Positions 1 to 41,222 of a DNA stretch of 46,468 nt are shown here, piece after piece. The position numbers and the translations under genes were made by a program. Source of the DNA: Bacteroidales bacterium (GTDB lineage: Bacteria; Bacteroidota; Bacteroidia; Bacteroidales; P3); contig JAFUGA010000015.1 of the NCBI GenBank assembly GCA_017469625.1, positions 1 through 46,468 of the forward strand, in the 5' to 3' direction. Each line of letters begins with the position of its first letter. The stretch's first letter is position 1. A model generated the notes under the pieces. The model was not told the DNA's origin. It searched no databases and worked only from the letters and a program-made list of their open reading frames with translations.

Positions 1-774
1 AATTTTGTTTCTTTGATAGTTCTACCTTGAACATCTGTTACATAGATTGTAACCTCAGAGTTTATTCCCTCAACTCTTAACATAGCGTCTTCTGTTGTAG
101 GATTTGGATAAAGCATTACTCTTATTCCGTTTTCTACATCATTGATACTGCTATTTACTGTCAAAGTAAGAATTACTGTACTGTCGCAACCGTTTTCATC
201 AGTGAATACCTCAGTATATGTTCCTTCTGTTTCCAAAACTTGTGTTCCGAATTGATAAGGAAGTTCATCTGGGTTGATTGTTATATCTGTTACATTAGTA
301 TTTTCTGGTCTTACAACTAATGTTACTGTGTAAAGAGTATCACATTCATTTCCTTGACCAGCAACAGTTGTTGTATATGTACCTGTTGTTGTGTAAGTAT
401 TACCGTTGAATGTGAATGTTTCACCATAGCATACAGTTTCATTAAGAGTTGCTGTTGCAGGAGTACAAGGTTCTTCACCTGCTTCAAGGGTTGTGAATGT
501 TACTTCTTCACCATATTGAGTACCATTTGCAGTTGTAGCAAAGGCTTTATATGTGTAAGAAGTATTTGCAGTTAATCCTGTTAAGTTAGCAGTCATAGTT
601 GTTCCTGTTGCAGAAACAGAAGTATAAGTACCACCAACAGTTGCTTTCCATTCAAAACCTCTTGCAGTTATTGTTTGGTTACCCAAATCTGTTATAGCAC
701 CGTTAAGAGTAGCAGAAGTTTGTGTAATACTTGTTGCAGCATTTGTTACTACTGTAGGTTCTACTGGGTCTGGT
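1..774 (-). repeat. C-terminal module shared with second adhesin (copy A)
   Basis: This segment matches 41421-42348 nearly base for base, coding the last FN3 domain, the Cys-repeat region and the sorting domain. The other copy holds 153 bp (51 codons) more, one extra Cys repeat. The window edge falls inside this shared module, as expected where an assembly breaks at a repeat. Confidence 0.9.
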
Positions 775-3700
775 ATAATTATTTCTCCTGTAGATGAAAT
801 ATAAAGAGAATCTACTGCTACTCCATAACCATTTCCTACTGTGTATGCAAATGCTATTTGATATGTAGCAGAAGGGTTAGGTAAAGCTAACGAATCTCTT
901 GTCCATTCTATTGTATTAGTTGTATAAGTTGCAAGTTGTGTCCAATCTTCATCAGTAGCAGTTCTGTAATATACTGTTAGAATATCGCTAGCGTTATTAT
1001 AAGCATCAAATGCTACAAAATAGTTATACACGATATAAGGTGTTCCTAATGAAGTAAGATTGAACAAAGGAGATACAATCATATCTGATGTTGCACCATT
1101 GGAATAGTTATGTCCAAGATAGTGATTACCGTGTTGTGGCAAAATATATAATTGATTGCCTTCTGTTGGATAATACGACATGCTTGTATTGTCTTTTATT
1201 CCCCAATTACTATTATTTCCTTCTGTATTTGCCCAACAACCTAAATCATCACTTTCAAAATCCTCAAAATAAGGGAATGAAGTAACGGCTACACATAGCG
1301 TAATAAATGAAATAGTTCTTGGAGAAGCAACACCCTCGCCACATTCAGGAGTAACCTCTACAGTGTAGGAAGATGATGATTCTAAACCTGACAATACAAT
1401 ACTTGTTTCACTAACTGTTGTTTCTTCCCAAGTATCTTCGTTTGCGATTTTGTATCTTACATTAAATCCCTCCTCAGCAGTACTTGTCCAAGAAATAGTT
1501 GCACTATTCTCTGTCACGTTTGTAGTTTGTAAATTCATCACAGGCAAACAATCTGGTGCAATTTCCAAAGTTACATCATCAAAGTAAGTTCCATTATAAT
1601 CAGAAGATACAACCTTAATAGCAACATATGCACCTTCTCCAGTGTAAGTTACTAAAGGAATTTCATATAAAGAAGAAGTATTAGTTACTTGTACAGAAGA
1701 TACTTCTGTAAACGTAGATACATCGTTTGGATTTGTCATAACACCAACACTTACAGTACTGTTAGGATTTGTTGCACTTGTAGCACAATTAAAAGATAAT
1801 TGCAAGTCATTCAACTCTAATGCATCTCTATCTATAATAGGTAGTACAGCGTAACTTGTTCCACTGTTATAAAAATACAATACATAAGTTCCACTTGTAG
1901 CATAAGTAGAGTTGTTATATACGTAAGGATAAGTTGTAGCAGGTCTTGACCAACAAGCAGGAAGCGGATAAGAAGATGTTCCTCCTGTATTACCTGAATC
2001 AAAATTCCATGTGAAAGGAACTTCTGCTATTCCTTCGCAAGCAGTAGTGAAAGAGGCAACAGGAGATGCTGGTGTAGTTTCGCAATCTGCTACAACATAT
2101 ACATTATAAGTCGTAGCAGCATCTAATTCTGCGAATGTGTAAGTGGATTCTTCACTTACTTCTATAGGCTCAGAATATTCTGTTTCAGAGGATTTCTTTA
2201 TATAAACAGTCCAAGTATCTATTTCATCTGGTTGAATCCAAGTAATAGTTGCATTGTGAGATCCTATTGTTGTAGCAGTTATACCTGTAGGAGCAAAACA
2301 AGCAGGAGGGTTTTCCTCATTGTATACTTTTACATTGTCAATGTATGCACCATCAGCATTTGACCCCATTCCTGTGAAAACAAATCTTATTTGGATTGTT
2401 TCAGAAGTTGTAGGCAATACAATAGAATCATTTCTCCAAGCAGAGCAAACATCTTCATATGTTGTTAAATATGTCCATTCCTCTTCTACATCAGAACGAT
2501 ATGATACAGTTATTTTATCTGAAACACCACTTGAAGAAAAATCAGGTCTGCGTTGAGAAAATTTAAGAAAAGGTGTAGTTACCTGACTTATATCAAATAT
2601 AGGAGATATAGCCTCTCCTGTATAAGTTCCATAAGTATGACCAATATATCCGTTGCTATTGTAATTTATACCTGTTAGGGTCCAACATTGAGGATTTTGA
2701 GAGAATGAATCTTCATAAGCATTTTCGTCATCAACCACTACAGTACCACAAGCAGTACGGAAAGAATAAACAATACTTCCTGATTCAGTTCCATCATCAC
2801 AAATAGAAGAAACATACCACTGATAATCTGTTGTAGCTGTAAGTCCTTCCAAAGTATAGATACCATCTTCTAAACTAACACCTAAAATAGATGTGTATTC
2901 TGTTTCGGAAGATTTTTTGTAATAAAGATTTACACTATAATCTGATTCCCAATAAAGATTTGCACTTGATTCTGTCATAGCATCTGCAGAAAGATTTGTA
3001 GGTTCAAGACATTCTGGTATAGGTTTTACTACTACGTTATCTACGTGCCAATCATTTCCAGAGCCTGCTGTAGAATGTTGTTTGAATGCTATATAACCTT
3101 CTTCTAATTCTATATCATTGAAATCTATTACTATAGGATAGTATGTTGTATTAGAATTAAAATCTGAAATATAAGAAGAAGCATTCAATGATTCTACAGT
3201 TTCAAATTGGTCTATATCATCAACGTTTGCTGTAGGTATAACTCCTATATCAAGTATGCCGGCATTTCCACCTCTTGCAACTACATCAAAAGTTATTCTT
3301 AAAGTATGTAAATCTTCTGCAAATTTTGGTAAAACTATTATACCAGTTTCATCTGTTTCAAAAAGAAGGCTTTTTGTAGAAGGTTCGTAATTTGCAATAT
3401 CAACAGCAGGGAAAATTTGTCCTGTGTTCCAGTTGTGAGATGCTAATTGTGTCCAACAATTAGGAATAGCATAATCTGTATATGTTTCAAAATTTTCACT
3501 GTATGGTATTTCACTAACAGATATTACATCACAAGCAGTAACAAATGTACGAACAAGACTTTCCAATTCTTCGTCACCGTCGCAAACAGAAGTTACATAC
3601 CATTGGTATGTAGTAGCAGGGTTAAGGTCTTCTAAAAGATAAATACCATCTTCCAAACTAACATCGCTTACTTCTGTGTAAGTGTCTGCTGTTATAGGTT

Positions 3701-5873
3701 TGTAATAAAGATTTGTTGTATAATCAGAATTCCAAGACAATTCTACACTTTCAACCGTAGCATTGTTTGAAGAAAGTCCAGTAGGAGGAAAACATGTAGG
3801 AGGGTTTTCTTCGTTGTATACTTTTACGTTGTTAATATATGCACCATCAGCCTCTGAACCCATTCCTATGAAAGTAAATCTTATTTGATATGTTTCAGAA
3901 GCAGATGGCAATGCAATAGAATCGTATCTCCAATCAGAGCAAACATCTTCGTATGTTACCAAATCAACCCATTCGCTTTCTGCATCTACACGATAAGATA
4001 CAGCTACTTTGTCTGCAACACCACTTGACGAGAAATCAGGTCTGCGTTGAGAAAATTTAAGATAAGGAGTAGTTACTTGACTTATATCAAAAATAGGAGA
4101 AACAGCATTTACTGTATAATTTCCATAAATATGACCAATATAGCCGTCTTCGTCATAAGTTACATCTGTTAGAGACCAGCATTCTGGTTCTATAGAGAAT
4201 GTTTCTTCATAAGCCATTTCATCATCAACAACTATAGTACCACAAGCAGTAGAAAATGTATTAACAGGACTTGCAACTTCACTTCCATCATCGCAAATAG
4301 AAGTTACATACCATTCGTATACAGTAGCAGGGTTAAGGTCTTCTAAAAGATAAACACCGTCTTCTAAACTGACATCGGTTTCTTCTACGTATGTATCTGC
4401 TCCAGCAGGTTTGTAATGAAGATTTGTTGTATAATTAGAATTCCAAGACAATTCTACACTTTCAGTTGTTACATTGTTTGAAGCAAGTCCAACAGGAGGA
4501 AAACATGTAGGAGGGTTTTCTTCATTGTATAGTTTCACATTGTCAATGTATGCACCATCAGCATTTGACCCCATGCCTGTGAAAGCAAATCTTATTTGGA
4601 ATGTTTCTGAAGTTTCTGGCAATGCAATAGAATCCGCCCTCCAAGATGAACATACATCTTCGTATGTTATCAAATCAACCCATGCACTTTCTTCATCTAA
4701 ACGATAAGATACTGCTACTTTGTCTGCAACACCACTTGACGAGAAATCAGGTCTGCGTTGAGAAAATTTAAGATAAGGAGTGGTTACCTGACTCATATCA
4801 AATATAGGAGATATAGCCTCTCCTGTATAAGTTCCATAAGTATGACCAATATAGCCTTCACTGTTATAAGTTATATCTGTTAGAGTCCAACATTGAGGAT
4901 TTTGAGAGAATGAATCTTCATAAGCATTTTCGTCATCAACAATTACAGTACCACAAGCAGTCGTAAATGTAATTGTTCTCCAAGTGCTTTGCAAACTACC
5001 ACAGTCTGCTATAACTCTTACGTTGTAAGTTGTAGCAGCATTCAAATCTGAAAAGTCTATAGAATAATCATCAGTTGTTTGATAACCATCTTCTGGCCAC
5101 TCACCATTAGATGTTTTTATTTGATAATAGAAAGAAGGAAAATCTTCTCTTTCCTGCCAAGTAATAGTAGCAGAAGATGAAGTAATATTACTTGCAGTCA
5201 ATCCACTTACTCCAGCACAATAATCTCCACTGCCAGGAGTGTAATATATACGTATATCAGGCATATAGTGTACCACTGAAGCAAGGGTACTTAGATTTAT
5301 CGCACTTGTTTCCGCTTGTGCAGAACCATCTTGCAAAGACCCCCAAGCACGTGTGGTATTGCTACCTGAATAAGTAACATATTTAGAACAAGAACCACTT
5401 GTACCACAAGCAATACCCTCTACATATATTACAAGGTTTCCTCCTTGATAAGCATAGGATGTTTCAAACTCTATATTGCTCCATTGACCAGAAGTAGGAA
5501 CAGGGCAAATGCCGTCATAAACTAAAGTAGCACCTTCTTTTATCTCCTGCCATGTAATAGAACCATCTATAACATCTTCCGATGATTCATAAACATAAAC
5601 CTTTATTGTCGCAGTCGTAGCTGTTGCAGATGCAGTAGTACCTCCGTGATATGATATGGAAGTAATAGAACTTCCACTTGTCATATCGCCCAACTCGTCC
5701 GCTAAATACATCGTAACGGTACGATGGAAACCATAATATCCAGGCAAAACAGATTGATTTGTCCCACTTGCACTAGTGTTACTTCCAATTATTTCCACAA
5801 GTTCTCCATCTTGCGAAAATCCGCTAAGGCTTAAAACTATTGCCATCAGCATGAATAAGAATGTTTTTTTCAT
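1..5873 (-). CDS. Giant fibronectin-III / MAM-like multidomain T9SS surface adhesin (C-terminus cut by window edge)
   Basis: A frame open from the ATG at 5873 to base 1, 1957 codons visible. It begins with a signal peptide (MKKTFLFMLMAIVLSLSGFS), then a beta-rich N-terminal domain (about residues 30-215). About six alternations of FN3 domains with MAM/cleaved-adhesin-like domains follow; three of the latter come from near-identical 467-bp DNA copies. After about residue 1705 come a TSATLNG-type FN3 domain, Cys-containing repeats like those of SprB-type gliding adhesins, and a T9SS sorting domain opening with VMLYPNPTTE. Comparison with the paralogue at 41306 suggests only about 40 residues are missing. 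By family, such proteins are exported by T9SS and anchored at the cell surface, often for adhesion or matrix binding; the ligand is unknown. The gene has its own promoter and a long unusual leader. The domain calls are by eye and their borders are approximate. Confidence 0.9.
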   Translation of the reverse strand, partial: MKKTFLFMLMAIVLSLSGFSQDGELVEIIGSNTSASGTNQSVLPGYYGFHRTVTMYLADELGDMTSGSSITSISYHGGTTASATATTATIKVYVYESSEDVIDGSITWQEIKEGATLVYDGICPVPTSGQWSNIEFETSYAYQGGNLVIYVEGIACGTSGSCSKYVTYSGSNTTRAWGSLQDGSAQAETSAINLSTLASVVHYMPDIRIYYTPGSGDYCAGVSGLTASNITSSSATITWQEREDFPSFYYQIKTSNGEWPEDGYQTTDDYSIDFSDLNAATTYNVRVIADCGSLQSTWRTITFTTACGTVIVDDENAYEDSFSQNPQCWTLTDITYNSEGYIGHTYGTYTGEAISPIFDMSQVTTPYLKFSQRRPDFSSSGVADKVAVSYRLDEESAWVDLITYEDVCSSWRADSIALPETSETFQIRFAFTGMGSNADGAYIDNVKLYNEENPPTCFPPVGLASNNVTTESVELSWNSNYTTNLHYKPAGADTYVEETDVSLEDGVYLLEDLNPATVYEWYVTSICDDGSEVASPVNTFSTACGTIVVDDEMAYEETFSIEPECWSLTDVTYDEDGYIGHIYGNYTVNAVSPIFDISQVTTPYLKFSQRRPDFSSSGVADKVAVSYRVDAESEWVDLVTYEDVCSDWRYDSIALPSASETYQIRFTFIGMGSEADGAYINNVKVYNEENPPTCFPPTGLSSNNATVESVELSWNSDYTTNLYYKPITADTYTEVSDVSLEDGIYLLEDLNPATTYQWYVTSVCDGDEELESLVRTFVTACDVISVSEIPYSENFETYTDYAIPNCWTQLASHNWNTGQIFPAVDIANYEPSTKSLLFETDETGIIVLPKFAEDLHTLRITFDVVARGGNAGILDIGVIPTANVDDIDQFETVESLNASSYISDFNSNTTYYPIVIDFNDIELEEGYIAFKQHSTAGSGNDWHVDNVVVKPIPECLEPTNLSADAMTESSANLYWESDYSVNLYYKKSSETEYTSILGVSLEDGIYTLEGLTATTDYQWYVSSICDDGTESGSIVYSFRTACGTVVVDDENAYEDSFSQNPQCWTLTGINYNSNGYIGHTYGTYTGEAISPIFDISQVTTPFLKFSQRRPDFSSSGVSDKITVSYRSDVEEEWTYLTTYEDVCSAWRNDSIVLPTTSETIQIRFVFTGMGSNADGAYIDNVKVYNEENPPACFAPTGITATTIGSHNATITWIQPDEIDTWTVYIKKSSETEYSEPIEVSEESTYTFAELDAATTYNVYVVADCETTPASPVASFTTACEGIAEVPFTWNFDSGNTGGTSSYPLPACWSRPATTYPYVYNNSTYATSGTYVLYFYNSGTSYAVLPIIDRDALELNDLQLSFNCATSATNPNSTVSVGVMTNPNDVSTFTEVSSVQVTNTSSLYEIPLVTYTGEGAYVAIKVVSSDYNGTYFDDVTLEIAPDCLPVMNLQTTNVTENSATISWTSTAEEGFNVRYKIANEDTWEETTVSETSIVLSGLESSSSYTVEVTPECGEGVASPRTISFITLCVAVTSFPYFEDFESDDLGCWANTEGNNSNWGIKDNTSMSYYPTEGNQLYILPQHGNHYLGHNYSNGATSDMIVSPLFNLTSLGTPYIVYNYFVAFDAYNNASDILTVYYRTATDEDWTQLATYTTNTIEWTRDSLALPNPSATYQIAFAYTVGNGYGVAVDSLYISSTGEIIIPDPVEPTVVTNAATSITQTSATLNGAITDLGNQTITARGFEWKATVGGTYTSVSATGTTMTANLTGLTANTSYTYKAFATTANGTQYGEEVTFTTLEAGEEPCTPATATLNETVCYGETFTFNGNTYTTTGTYTTTVAGQGNECDTLYTVTLVVRPENTNVTDITINPDELPYQFGTQVLETEGTYTEVFTDENGCDSTVILTLTVNSSINDVENGIRVMLYPNPTTEDAMLRVEGINSEVTIYVTDVQGRTIKETK
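2290..2756 (-). repeat. MAM-like module, 467-bp copy 3 of adhesin 1
   Basis: One of three 467-bp copies (with 3784-4250 and 4495-4961) of equal length and without visible indels, coding a MAM/cleaved-adhesin-like domain. It reads from a conserved CGTVVVDDENAYED start to an AYIDNVK end. Confidence 0.85.
3784..4250 (-). repeat. MAM-like module, 467-bp copy 2 of adhesin 1
   Basis: Equal in length to 2290-2756 and 4495-4961. Shared landmarks are a GGAGGGTTTTC block at one end and GTACCACAAGCAGT at the other. It is followed by an FN3 domain that also resembles its neighbours. Confidence 0.85.
4495..4961 (-). repeat. MAM-like module, 467-bp copy 1 of adhesin 1
   Basis: The most N-terminal of the three 467-bp copies. 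It lies about 710 bp from copy 2, that is one FN3 plus MAM unit, which suggests tandem duplication of a two-domain unit. Confidence 0.85.
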
Positions 5874-5971
5874 TTTAGTTTGTTTTTTATTTATAAATTT
5901 TACTTAAATTTTAATTTTCTTATGTTAATAATATCTTTTTTTTGTGTTAATTTTTCCACAAATACATATAC

Positions 5972-6014
5972 AAAAATCCCTATTATTCAACGTTATTGAA
6001 AGTCGAATAATAGG
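5972..6014 (-). terminator. Terminator-like hairpin inside the leader of adhesin 1 (possible attenuator)
   Basis: On the minus strand CCTATTATTC (6014-6005) pairs with GAATAATAGG (5988-5979) around a 16-nt loop, followed by GA and five T. It lies between the promoter (6142-6173) and the start codon (5873), so it would end or attenuate the adhesin transcript. The small lipoprotein at 40573 has an equivalent hairpin in its leader. Confidence 0.6.
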
Positions 6015-6062
6015 AATTCCTACATTTACAGATTACTTCTGAAGGGTAAATTGTAACTTCTA

Positions 6063-6071
6063 CCCCCCCCC
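6063..6071 (-). repeat. Poly-G tract (9 G on the transcript) in the adhesin 1 leader
   Basis: Nine consecutive C on the plus strand, hence nine G in the transcript, about 70 nt after the -7 box. The flanks AATTATAT-(G)n-TA are identical to those of the 8-G tract at 41118-41125. Runs of this kind are prone to slippage, and none of similar length is seen elsewhere in this AT-rich window. Confidence 0.85.
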
Positions 6072-6141
6072 ATATAATTATATCTACTTGAAAAACAATA
6101 GTTTTGCTTCATAAACTTACACTTTTAATTAAATAACTCTG

Positions 6142-6173
6142 CAAAGATATAAATAATAATTTGATTTACCAAA
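6142..6173 (-). promoter_or_regulatory. Bacteroidetes-type promoter of adhesin 1
   Basis: Minus strand -33 TTTG at 6173-6170, 20-nt spacer, -7 TATCTTTG at 6149-6142. This fits the Bacteroidetes vegetative consensus and predicts a start near 6136, giving a 5' leader of about 260 nt that contains the poly-G tract and the hairpin. Confidence 0.7.
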
Positions 6174-40572: not shown

Positions 40573-40974
40573 TTACTTTTCTGATTGTACTGTAACAGTA
40601 TAGCCCAATTGTTTTAATCTTTCAGGGGCACCACGAGTTCCAGTGGTATCACCAAATATAAAACCACCTTTTGGAGTTAGTTTTTCATATTTGTCATGTG
40701 CTGCAATTAGTTTACCAGTTATATTCATAATACCACCAACTGGTGCCATAGTCCAATCTGGTATAGGTTCTAAATAAACAATATCATATTGTTTGTTTAA
40801 TGGACTCAAAACAGTATCTTGAATTCTTTCTTCATAATTATAATAATCAAATGCAAATGTTGTGCTGGTTGGTTTATGATTTTTCTCTGGTTCGTCATCG
40901 TCATTGTTACAAGCGATGAATAAGGTTAATCCTGCTAAGGTTAGGATTAGTGGTAGTTTTCTAAAAATTTTCAT
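40573..40974 (-). CDS. Small lipoprotein of unknown function (133 aa)
   Basis: Lipoprotein signal with TLFIACNNDDDEPE: Cys22 followed by acidic residues, a surface-export pattern in Bacteroidota. The mature part contains IVYLEPIPDWTMAPVGGIMNITG and GTRGAPERLKQLGYTVTV, without a family I know. A strong AAGGAGG ribosome site lies 7 bp before the ATG, unusual for this phylum. Its leader has the same plan as that of adhesin 1: consensus promoter, about 67 nt, poly-G tract, terminator-like hairpin, then the gene. It may be linked in regulation to the adhesins. Confidence 0.8.
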   Translation of the reverse strand: MKIFRKLPLILTLAGLTLFIACNNDDDEPEKNHKPTSTTFAFDYYNYEERIQDTVLSPLNKQYDIVYLEPIPDWTMAPVGGIMNITGKLIAAHDKYEKLTPKGGFIFGDTTGTRGAPERLKQLGYTVTVQSEK

Positions 40975-41033: not shown

Positions 41034-41077
41034 AAAAAAATCCGACAAATAAAGCACAATATACTTTATCTGTCGGA
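41034..41077 (-). terminator. Strong terminator-like hairpin inside the lipoprotein leader (possible attenuator)
   Basis: Minus strand TCCGACAGATAAAG (41077-41064) pairs with CTTTATTTGTCGGA (41054-41041), 14 bp with one G-U, 9-nt loop, followed by T7 (41040-41034). It is located about 60 bp before the start codon, after the promoter. I see no second consensus promoter between it and the gene. Confidence 0.8.
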
Positions 41078-41117
41078 CTAAATTATTGTTTATAACTTTC
41101 TGAGAAGTGGTTATTTA

Positions 41118-41125
41118 CCCCCCCC
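41118..41125 (-). repeat. Poly-G tract (8 G on the transcript) in the lipoprotein leader
   Basis: Eight C on the plus strand with flanks AATTATAT-(G)8-TA identical to those of the 9-G tract at 6063-6071. It lies 67 nt after the -7 box, against 70 nt in adhesin 1. Confidence 0.85.
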
Positions 41126-41192
41126 ATATAATTTTCTAATAATATAATATTTACGTTATTATCTTTCATTCTTTTGCTCTTATTTTCTACTG

Positions 41193-41222
41193 CAAAGATA
41201 TAAAAATTCTAATACATACAAA
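41193..41222 (-). promoter_or_regulatory. Promoter of the small lipoprotein gene
   Basis: Minus strand -33 TTTG at 41222-41219, 18-nt spacer, -7 TATCTTTG at 41200-41193, followed by CAG exactly as in the adhesin 1 promoter. Confidence 0.65.

Follow-up and report, generated by a model that had tools for sequence, protein, structure and literature searches.

Poly-G tracts within short leader ORFs as candidate phase-variable transcription attenuators of a Bacteroidales genome

The window, i.e. the whole 46,468-nt stretch of a Bacteroidales contig that was analysed, carries at 41 kb a run of eight G residues between a promoter-like box and a terminator-like hairpin, in front of a gene for a small lipoprotein-like protein. 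A leader of the same plan lies at 6 kb in front of an adhesin-like gene unrelated to the lipoprotein gene. The locus raises the question of how the number of G residues in a leader might control the gene behind it, and how widely such leaders are used. The initial annotation had proposed that the two leaders may mark a regulon of surface genes under a poly-G-controlled attenuator.

All the parts listed in that annotation were found on the minus strand: TATCTTTGCAG (41200-41190), AATTATAT (41133-41126) followed by G8 and TA, the 14-bp hairpin TCCGACAGATAAAG...CTTTATTTGTCGGA with its T7, the AAGGAGG site and the lipoprotein ORF (Table 1). The spacing of 67 nt given there is right if counted from the first base of the box, but only 56 nt separate the end of TATCTTTGCAG from AATTATAT; in the first leader 59 nt separate the box (6149-6139) from position 6079 on the minus strand, so the spacing of the two leaders does agree within 3 nt. 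The poly-G tracts differ in length, the first leader having G9 and the window leader G8. While box, tract and terminator were correctly recognized, an ORF that opens about 30 nt after the -7 box and holds the poly-G had been overlooked. Since the missing part is a leader ORF reading through the tract, the G count most likely acts via the reading frame.

Table 1. Elements of the two leaders in the window
Feature	Coordinates	Strand	Remarks
Window leader, -7 box TATCTTTGC, predicted promoter of the leader transcript	41192..41200	minus	Bacteroidota-type
Window leader, leader ORF MKDNNVNIILLENYMGGVNNHFSESYKQ and stop	41083..41169	minus	28 codons + stop, ATG at 41169, passes through the G tract
Window leader, G8 homopolymer	41118..41125	minus	proposed switch
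Window leader, terminator hairpin	41039..41079	minus	strict 14-bp core 41077-41041; T7 41040-41034
Window leader, gene presumably controlled, 133-aa lipoprotein-like protein	40573..40974	minus	stop present; AAGGAGG just upstream
First leader, -7 box TATCTTTGC	6141..6149	minus	
First leader, leader ORF MKQNYCFSSRYNYMGGGRSYNLPFRSNL and stop	6026..6112	minus	with the assembled G9 ends at the stem foot
First leader, G9 homopolymer	6063..6071	minus	
First leader, terminator hairpin	5968..6025	minus	as scored by script
First leader, gene presumably controlled, large secreted adhesin-like protein	3..5873	minus	frame reaches the window edge

With G8 the stop codon of the window leader ORF falls 3 nt before the terminator stem, and in the G7 and G9 registers 35 and 31 nt before it, respectively; with G7, G9 or G10 translation would end 3-7 nt past the tract. 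The stem alone was calculated at -23.6 kcal/mol and has 14 strict base pairs (up to 19 when end and loop pairs are counted), and the fold of the leader reached z = -5.46. The lipoprotein-like protein has a lipobox-like LTLFIAC, as read by eye, and gave no Pfam match up to E = 1. The adhesin-like protein of the first leader contains fibronectin III and MAM domains, its match to a secretion tail being below the Pfam cut-off. The motif TATCTTTGCAG occurs twice in the window in comparison to 0.05 copies expected by chance, and the G/C runs of length 5, 6, 7, 8 and 9 number 3, 1, 0, 1 and 1, the last two being those of both leaders. An Rfam search of the window at the gathering cut-offs returned only a tRNA and no known RNA family for the leaders.

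The search for box, poly-G and terminator was extended to the whole 2.37-Mb genome (G000), where the arrangement recurred in leaders that are not plain duplicates of one another. The pattern TATATGGGGGG is present in 17 copies versus none for the reversed pattern, and TTTGC followed after 55-85 nt by TATG7 in 21 versus none for the reversed control. Every one of the 53 runs of at least seven G was retrieved and inspected. Their lengths peak at G9 (6, 7, 26, 10 and 4 runs of G7, G8, G9, G10 and G11, respectively), as assembled in a draft, so that single tract lengths may be wrong. The tracts were sorted into 26 of leader type (terminator score of at least 30 together with an ORF or a box), 9 inside long coding frames and 18 belonging to neither class. 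The cut-off of 30, like those of -12 and -20 used below for the stop position, was our own choice. One boxed tract with a terminator (L081, at 3995, minus strand) was dropped because no open ORF enters it, leaving 25 leaders; a stop codon at the edge of this tract closes the leader frame, and L081 may hold a decayed leader.

Some of the 18 unsorted tracts, e.g. L116 and L102, look like leaders with weaker hairpins. Two intergenic tracts of G8/G9 with nearly the same flanks (L079 at 5476 and L095 at 4002, both plus strand) each lie less than 300 bases from a contig end. The tracts in long frames at L073, L089, L104, L113, L072 and L091 are likely ordinary contingency loci, and the coding G7 runs of the ordinary-looking enzymes L075 and L094 may not be switches. 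At L067, L134, L145 and L146, loci of relatives, a short N-terminal stretch, a G tract and a signal-like stretch stand in one frame of an exported-looking protein; these too are likely contingency loci.

A TAnnTTTG-type box, which we take to be the Bacteroidota -7 promoter element, precedes the tract in 23 of the 25 own leaders and is missing in the other two. Only two of the 25 have such a box in the interval from terminator to gene, and most target genes therefore seem dependent on transcription passing the terminator. The possibility that the poly-G acts as a promoter spacer was rejected, as the tract mostly lies 70-105 nt downstream of TTTGC. ORFs as short as those of the leaders would probably be overlooked by gene callers.

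As the target of each leader we took the best ORF lying no more than 450 nt from the terminator. Seven of the 25 leaders precede a family of lipoprotein-like proteins of 130-149 aa. Six small exported-looking proteins, four of them from this family, were scanned and none reached the Pfam cut-off. Another six stand before genes for adhesin-like proteins, large or cut off, that have an N-terminus in common; of these, only the protein encoded in the window was scanned against Pfam. The remaining targets comprise a leucine-rich BspA-type protein that bears a secretion tail, a Sel1-DarT protein, a ResIII/DEAD helicase, a WYL protein, an M48 peptidase, a SIR2-like protein and three further proteins, two with no Pfam match and one whose methyltransferase matches, like the TIR match of the SIR2-like protein, fall below the cut-off. 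Three of five proteins scanned against a defence library matched it, with hits to models of DarT, helicase and WYL. For the WYL gene the link to the leader is weak, because it has a box of its own and begins 264 nt past the terminator; the targets of L078 and L093 also start about 300 nt from the terminator. The view that only surface genes are served cannot be kept, the Sel1-DarT protein, the helicase, the SIR2-like protein and the M48 peptidase also being encoded downstream of leaders. The helicase gene has a lipoprotein-type leader (L084), which suggests that leaders may move between genes or change partner.

The statistical tests were done on 179 tracts, 53 from the own genome and 126 from ten genomes of the same genus that were sampled unevenly, with all 30 tracts of G9 or longer taken from G009 and only 3 of 41 from G002. 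Four loci of relatives (L126, L128, L137 and L139), not assigned to a genome and showing no terminator, were left out. TTTGC lies 25-125 nt upstream of 92 of the 179 tracts. A strong terminator follows 15-125 nt downstream in 44 of these 92 in comparison to none in 10 rounds of shuffling, and in 6 of the 87 tracts that lack the box. The 44 boxed tracts with terminators fell into 23 clusters at a 60 % cut-off, and the 25 own leaders likewise carry unrelated leader and hairpin sequences, which bears out the initial impression of a conserved plan with differing hairpins. It is the plan and not the sequence that the leaders have in common, as fits a mechanism in which only the end point of the ribosome matters.

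That the leaders are merely recent copies of one another, free of any selected function, is in our estimation extremely unlikely: although one cluster of 13 does unite the closely similar lipoprotein-type leaders with some others, the division into 23 clusters, the unrelated hairpins and genes, and the single leaders of the same plan found in other families of the order (see below) do not agree with recent copying.

An ATG-initiated ORF stays open into the tract in 20 of the 23 non-redundant boxed tracts with terminators. When the spacers were shuffled, 5.2 +/- 1.7 of 23 remained open, the maximum in 500 rounds being 12. Without the reduction to clusters, an open ORF was absent in 3 of 44. The ATG stands 24-34 nt past TTTGC in 32 of 41 boxed leaders. 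All 20 leaders of the test set have both a register that reaches the hairpin (stop ending at -12 or later relative to the stem) and a short one (-20 or earlier); the shuffled leaders gave 13.1 +/- 2.1 of 20 and none of 500 rounds reached 20. A stop close to the stem (-12 to +6) was present in 13 of 20 versus 8.5 +/- 2.1 in shuffles, a modest excess reached by 14 of 500 rounds. The number of leaders with exactly one ON register did not exceed chance: it was 10 of 20, against 8.5 in shuffles, and 151 of the 500 rounds gave at least as many. The position of the leader stop relative to the stem was also listed for three neighbouring G counts in 45 leaders (25 of G000, 11 of G009, 3 of G013, 2 each of G006 and G011, 1 each of G008 and G002). 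Every one of the 45 has at least one register ending at -12 or beyond and at least one ending at -22 to -56. Box, open leader ORF, tract, predicted terminator and a stop that depends on the register are thus found together in many unrelated leaders.

On the strength of this arrangement we consider it highly probable that each leader serves as a phase-variable attenuator, in which transcription is coupled to translation. Synthesis of the leader RNA would start at the -7 promoter predicted from the box, and a ribosome would start at the leader ATG, mostly 24-34 nt after TTTGC, and read through the G tract. Slipped-strand mispairing is expected to alter the number of G residues and so to shift the leader frame. 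One or two of the three registers would place the leader stop at or past the foot of the stem, where the ribosome could block hairpin formation and let the polymerase enter the gene (ON). In the other registers the leader would end mostly 22-56 nt before the stem, the hairpin could form and transcription would end (OFF). By our threshold the assembled G numbers predict 8 of the 25 own leaders to be ON, including both leaders of the window, and 17 to be OFF. The same design stands before many unrelated genes, each of which would switch alone. Since slippage should act on each copy separately, the word regulon in the sense of a common control was only partly apt, although the recurring architecture and the fit to an attenuator were rightly seen.

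The same leader ORF and terminator would also be used if RNA polymerase slipped on the G run, giving transcripts of mixed register within a cell and a graded, leaky level of expression with no heritable switching. Long one-base runs can indeed cause transcriptional slippage. This explanation is nevertheless judged quite unlikely, because closely similar lipoprotein-type leaders carry G7, G8, G9, G10 and G11, i.e. the tract length varies apart from its flanks and has changed at the level of DNA; polymerase slippage may, however, act in addition.

The presence of GGG codons in the leaders and of terminators behind them could also point to a classical amino-acid attenuator or a stalling peptide, in which glycine supply or the nascent peptide stalls the ribosome at the tract. 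A hairpin competing with the terminator was looked for between tract and terminator in 48 leaders and no general one was detected (mean z = -0.3), folding there being confined to some adhesin-type leaders; a general pause hairpin was rejected on the same grounds. Moreover, the leader peptides differ between families and none of the 16 downstream proteins that were scanned against Pfam pointed to a glycine pathway. The features of a trp-type attenuator, a competing hairpin before the terminator and regulatory codons that fit the pathway of the target gene, were not found. Stalling at the tract is thus a very unlikely basis of the control, and the attenuator set by reading frame is preferred.

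In adhesin-type leaders (L085, L096, L325, L327 and 6071-6026 of the window, minus strand) pairing is possible between the last part of the G run and a TACCC-like sequence shortly after it, for example between GGGTAAAA and TTTTACCC in L325 and L327, perhaps as a pause hairpin.

The variable columns among related leader peptides show no bias of codon position (30, 26 and 26), which adds no proof of leader translation. Selection at the peptide level was rejected for want of an excess at third codon positions. A (T/I)TSL or TSSF motif recurs just before the tract in the own leaders L098, L107 and L108, in L215 and in the leaders of relatives L060, L068, L118, L127, L133, L282, L307, L320 and L337, leaders that are otherwise unlike and come from different species.

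The principle of such a switch has been described for Streptococcus gallolyticus. According to Danne et al. 2014 (PMC3894217), the number of GCAGA repeats in the leader ORF of pil1 sets the end of the leader peptide, and translation up to the terminator raises transcription, a stop 4 nt before or inside the terminator giving high and a stop 28 nt or more before it low expression. The Bacteroidales leaders resemble the pil1/pil3 case in having the repeat inside the leader ORF, the frame set by the repeat number and the position of the stop relative to the terminator. By sequence, a repeat in the leader ORF, a predicted intrinsic terminator and a shift of the stop by repeat number were all found, the repeat unit being poly-G instead of GCAGA. 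Some of the OFF distances (22-27 nt) fall short of the 28 nt reported for the low cases of pil1. There the evidence is experimental and concerns two pilus loci of a Firmicute, whereas here 25 poly-G leaders of one Bacteroidales genome are described from sequence, mostly behind a -7 box and before unrelated genes. We infer by analogy that the leaders may work like pil1, and no descent from pil1 is claimed. Among the literature matches listed, the combination of phase variation, leader peptide, transcription terminator, ribosome and frameshift returned PMC3894217 only, and no description of poly-G leader attenuators in Bacteroidota was present; the matches covered few subscription papers and no bioRxiv preprints. 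In the accessible text of a 2025 review (PMC11868660), which mentions inversion-based switching, the terms terminat-, leader and gallolyticus are absent.

Variable G tracts, many per genome, that turn genes ON or OFF by frame are known as contingency loci of Campylobacter, Helicobacter and Neisseria (PMC11955535). The own genome resembles these in having 9 of 53 tracts in long coding frames; in the leaders, by contrast, the frame would control the leader ORF and transcription termination and not the protein itself. A variable G run in an mRNA leader likewise occurs in tlpB of Helicobacter pylori, where the G-repeat is the target of the small RNA RepG (PMC8295292). With this precedent for control through a leader G-repeat (PMC8295292), the G run could be the target of an antisense small RNA or an RNA-binding protein, its length tuning the binding and the ORF being incidental; the tract does occur in many gene leaders of the own genome, often with the same flank. 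We regard this as unlikely, since it does not predict ORF openness and register geometry above those of shuffled leaders, the flanks before the tract differ (TATAT, TTATA, TATAA, TACAC) and the coding-type tracts of the same genome suggest control by frame. A leader ORF and a terminator accompany the tract here, which sets these leaders apart from the RepG/tlpB case.

It is rather likely that in this Bacteroidales lineage poly-G leader-ORF attenuators serve as a portable switch of general use, a single cassette design controlling some 25 or more unrelated genes of a genome, including anti-phage-like ones. Were this so, both the surface make-up and the defence repertoire would be redrawn at random via transcription termination, defence-like genes would become phase-variable, and phase-variable attenuation would be a genome-wide strategy of the lineage. 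Random switching in Bacteroidales is mostly ascribed to DNA inversion, surface genes being switched by invertible promoters; in the same order, repeat slippage is proposed here in place of inversion. An attenuator of the proposed kind would allow the cell to silence a gene while leaving its protein intact, and its ON or OFF state would be predictable from the G count. Existing metagenome reads could supply the G counts, which makes the idea directly testable.

Tracts of G9 or more are present in 12 of 14 genomes of the genus, with up to 41 per genome. Among the 126 tracts from the ten relatives 20 further leaders were recognized. Leaders make up 25 of 53 tracts in the own genome and 11 of 33 in G009, and none were found among the tracts of four relatives (0 of 16 in G004, 0 of 14 in G003, 0 of 3 in G001 and 0 of 1 in G007). 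A set of many copies was observed in this genus alone, most clearly in G000 and G009. The TAT flank is typical of the own genome but not of the genus: TATG9 and its control were found 23 and 1 times in the own genome, 6 and 5 times in G013, 2 and 2 times in G002 and 0 and 3 times in G004.

Across the order, box plus TATG7 was present in 22 of 393 genomes (own included) versus 28 of 393 for the reversed control by our count, i.e. outside the own genome there was no excess (21 versus 28 genomes). Inspection of 26 such loci of other genomes revealed the plan in L242, which is contained in L184, and in L246. The looser pattern of box plus G9 occurred in 76 of 393 genomes versus about 39 for the control, estimated by eye, and among 29 loci fetched L364 alone passed. 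A contig scan for TTTGC plus TATG9TA gave 64 stretches from many phyla, two of which (L184 and L215) pass the ORF filter and a terminator filter of 28 or more, the hairpin of L215 scoring 29.5 and so below the value of 30 required in the other analyses. A Salinivirgaceae MAG (L184), a Bacteroidaceae MAG (L215) and two genomes of other families (L246 and L364) thus have single leaders with this plan. L242 is classed in the same order as the window, and since Salinivirgaceae is assigned to Bacteroidales, the window most likely derives from that order. The leader in L215 precedes a gene for a 510-aa protein with a signal-like N-terminus.
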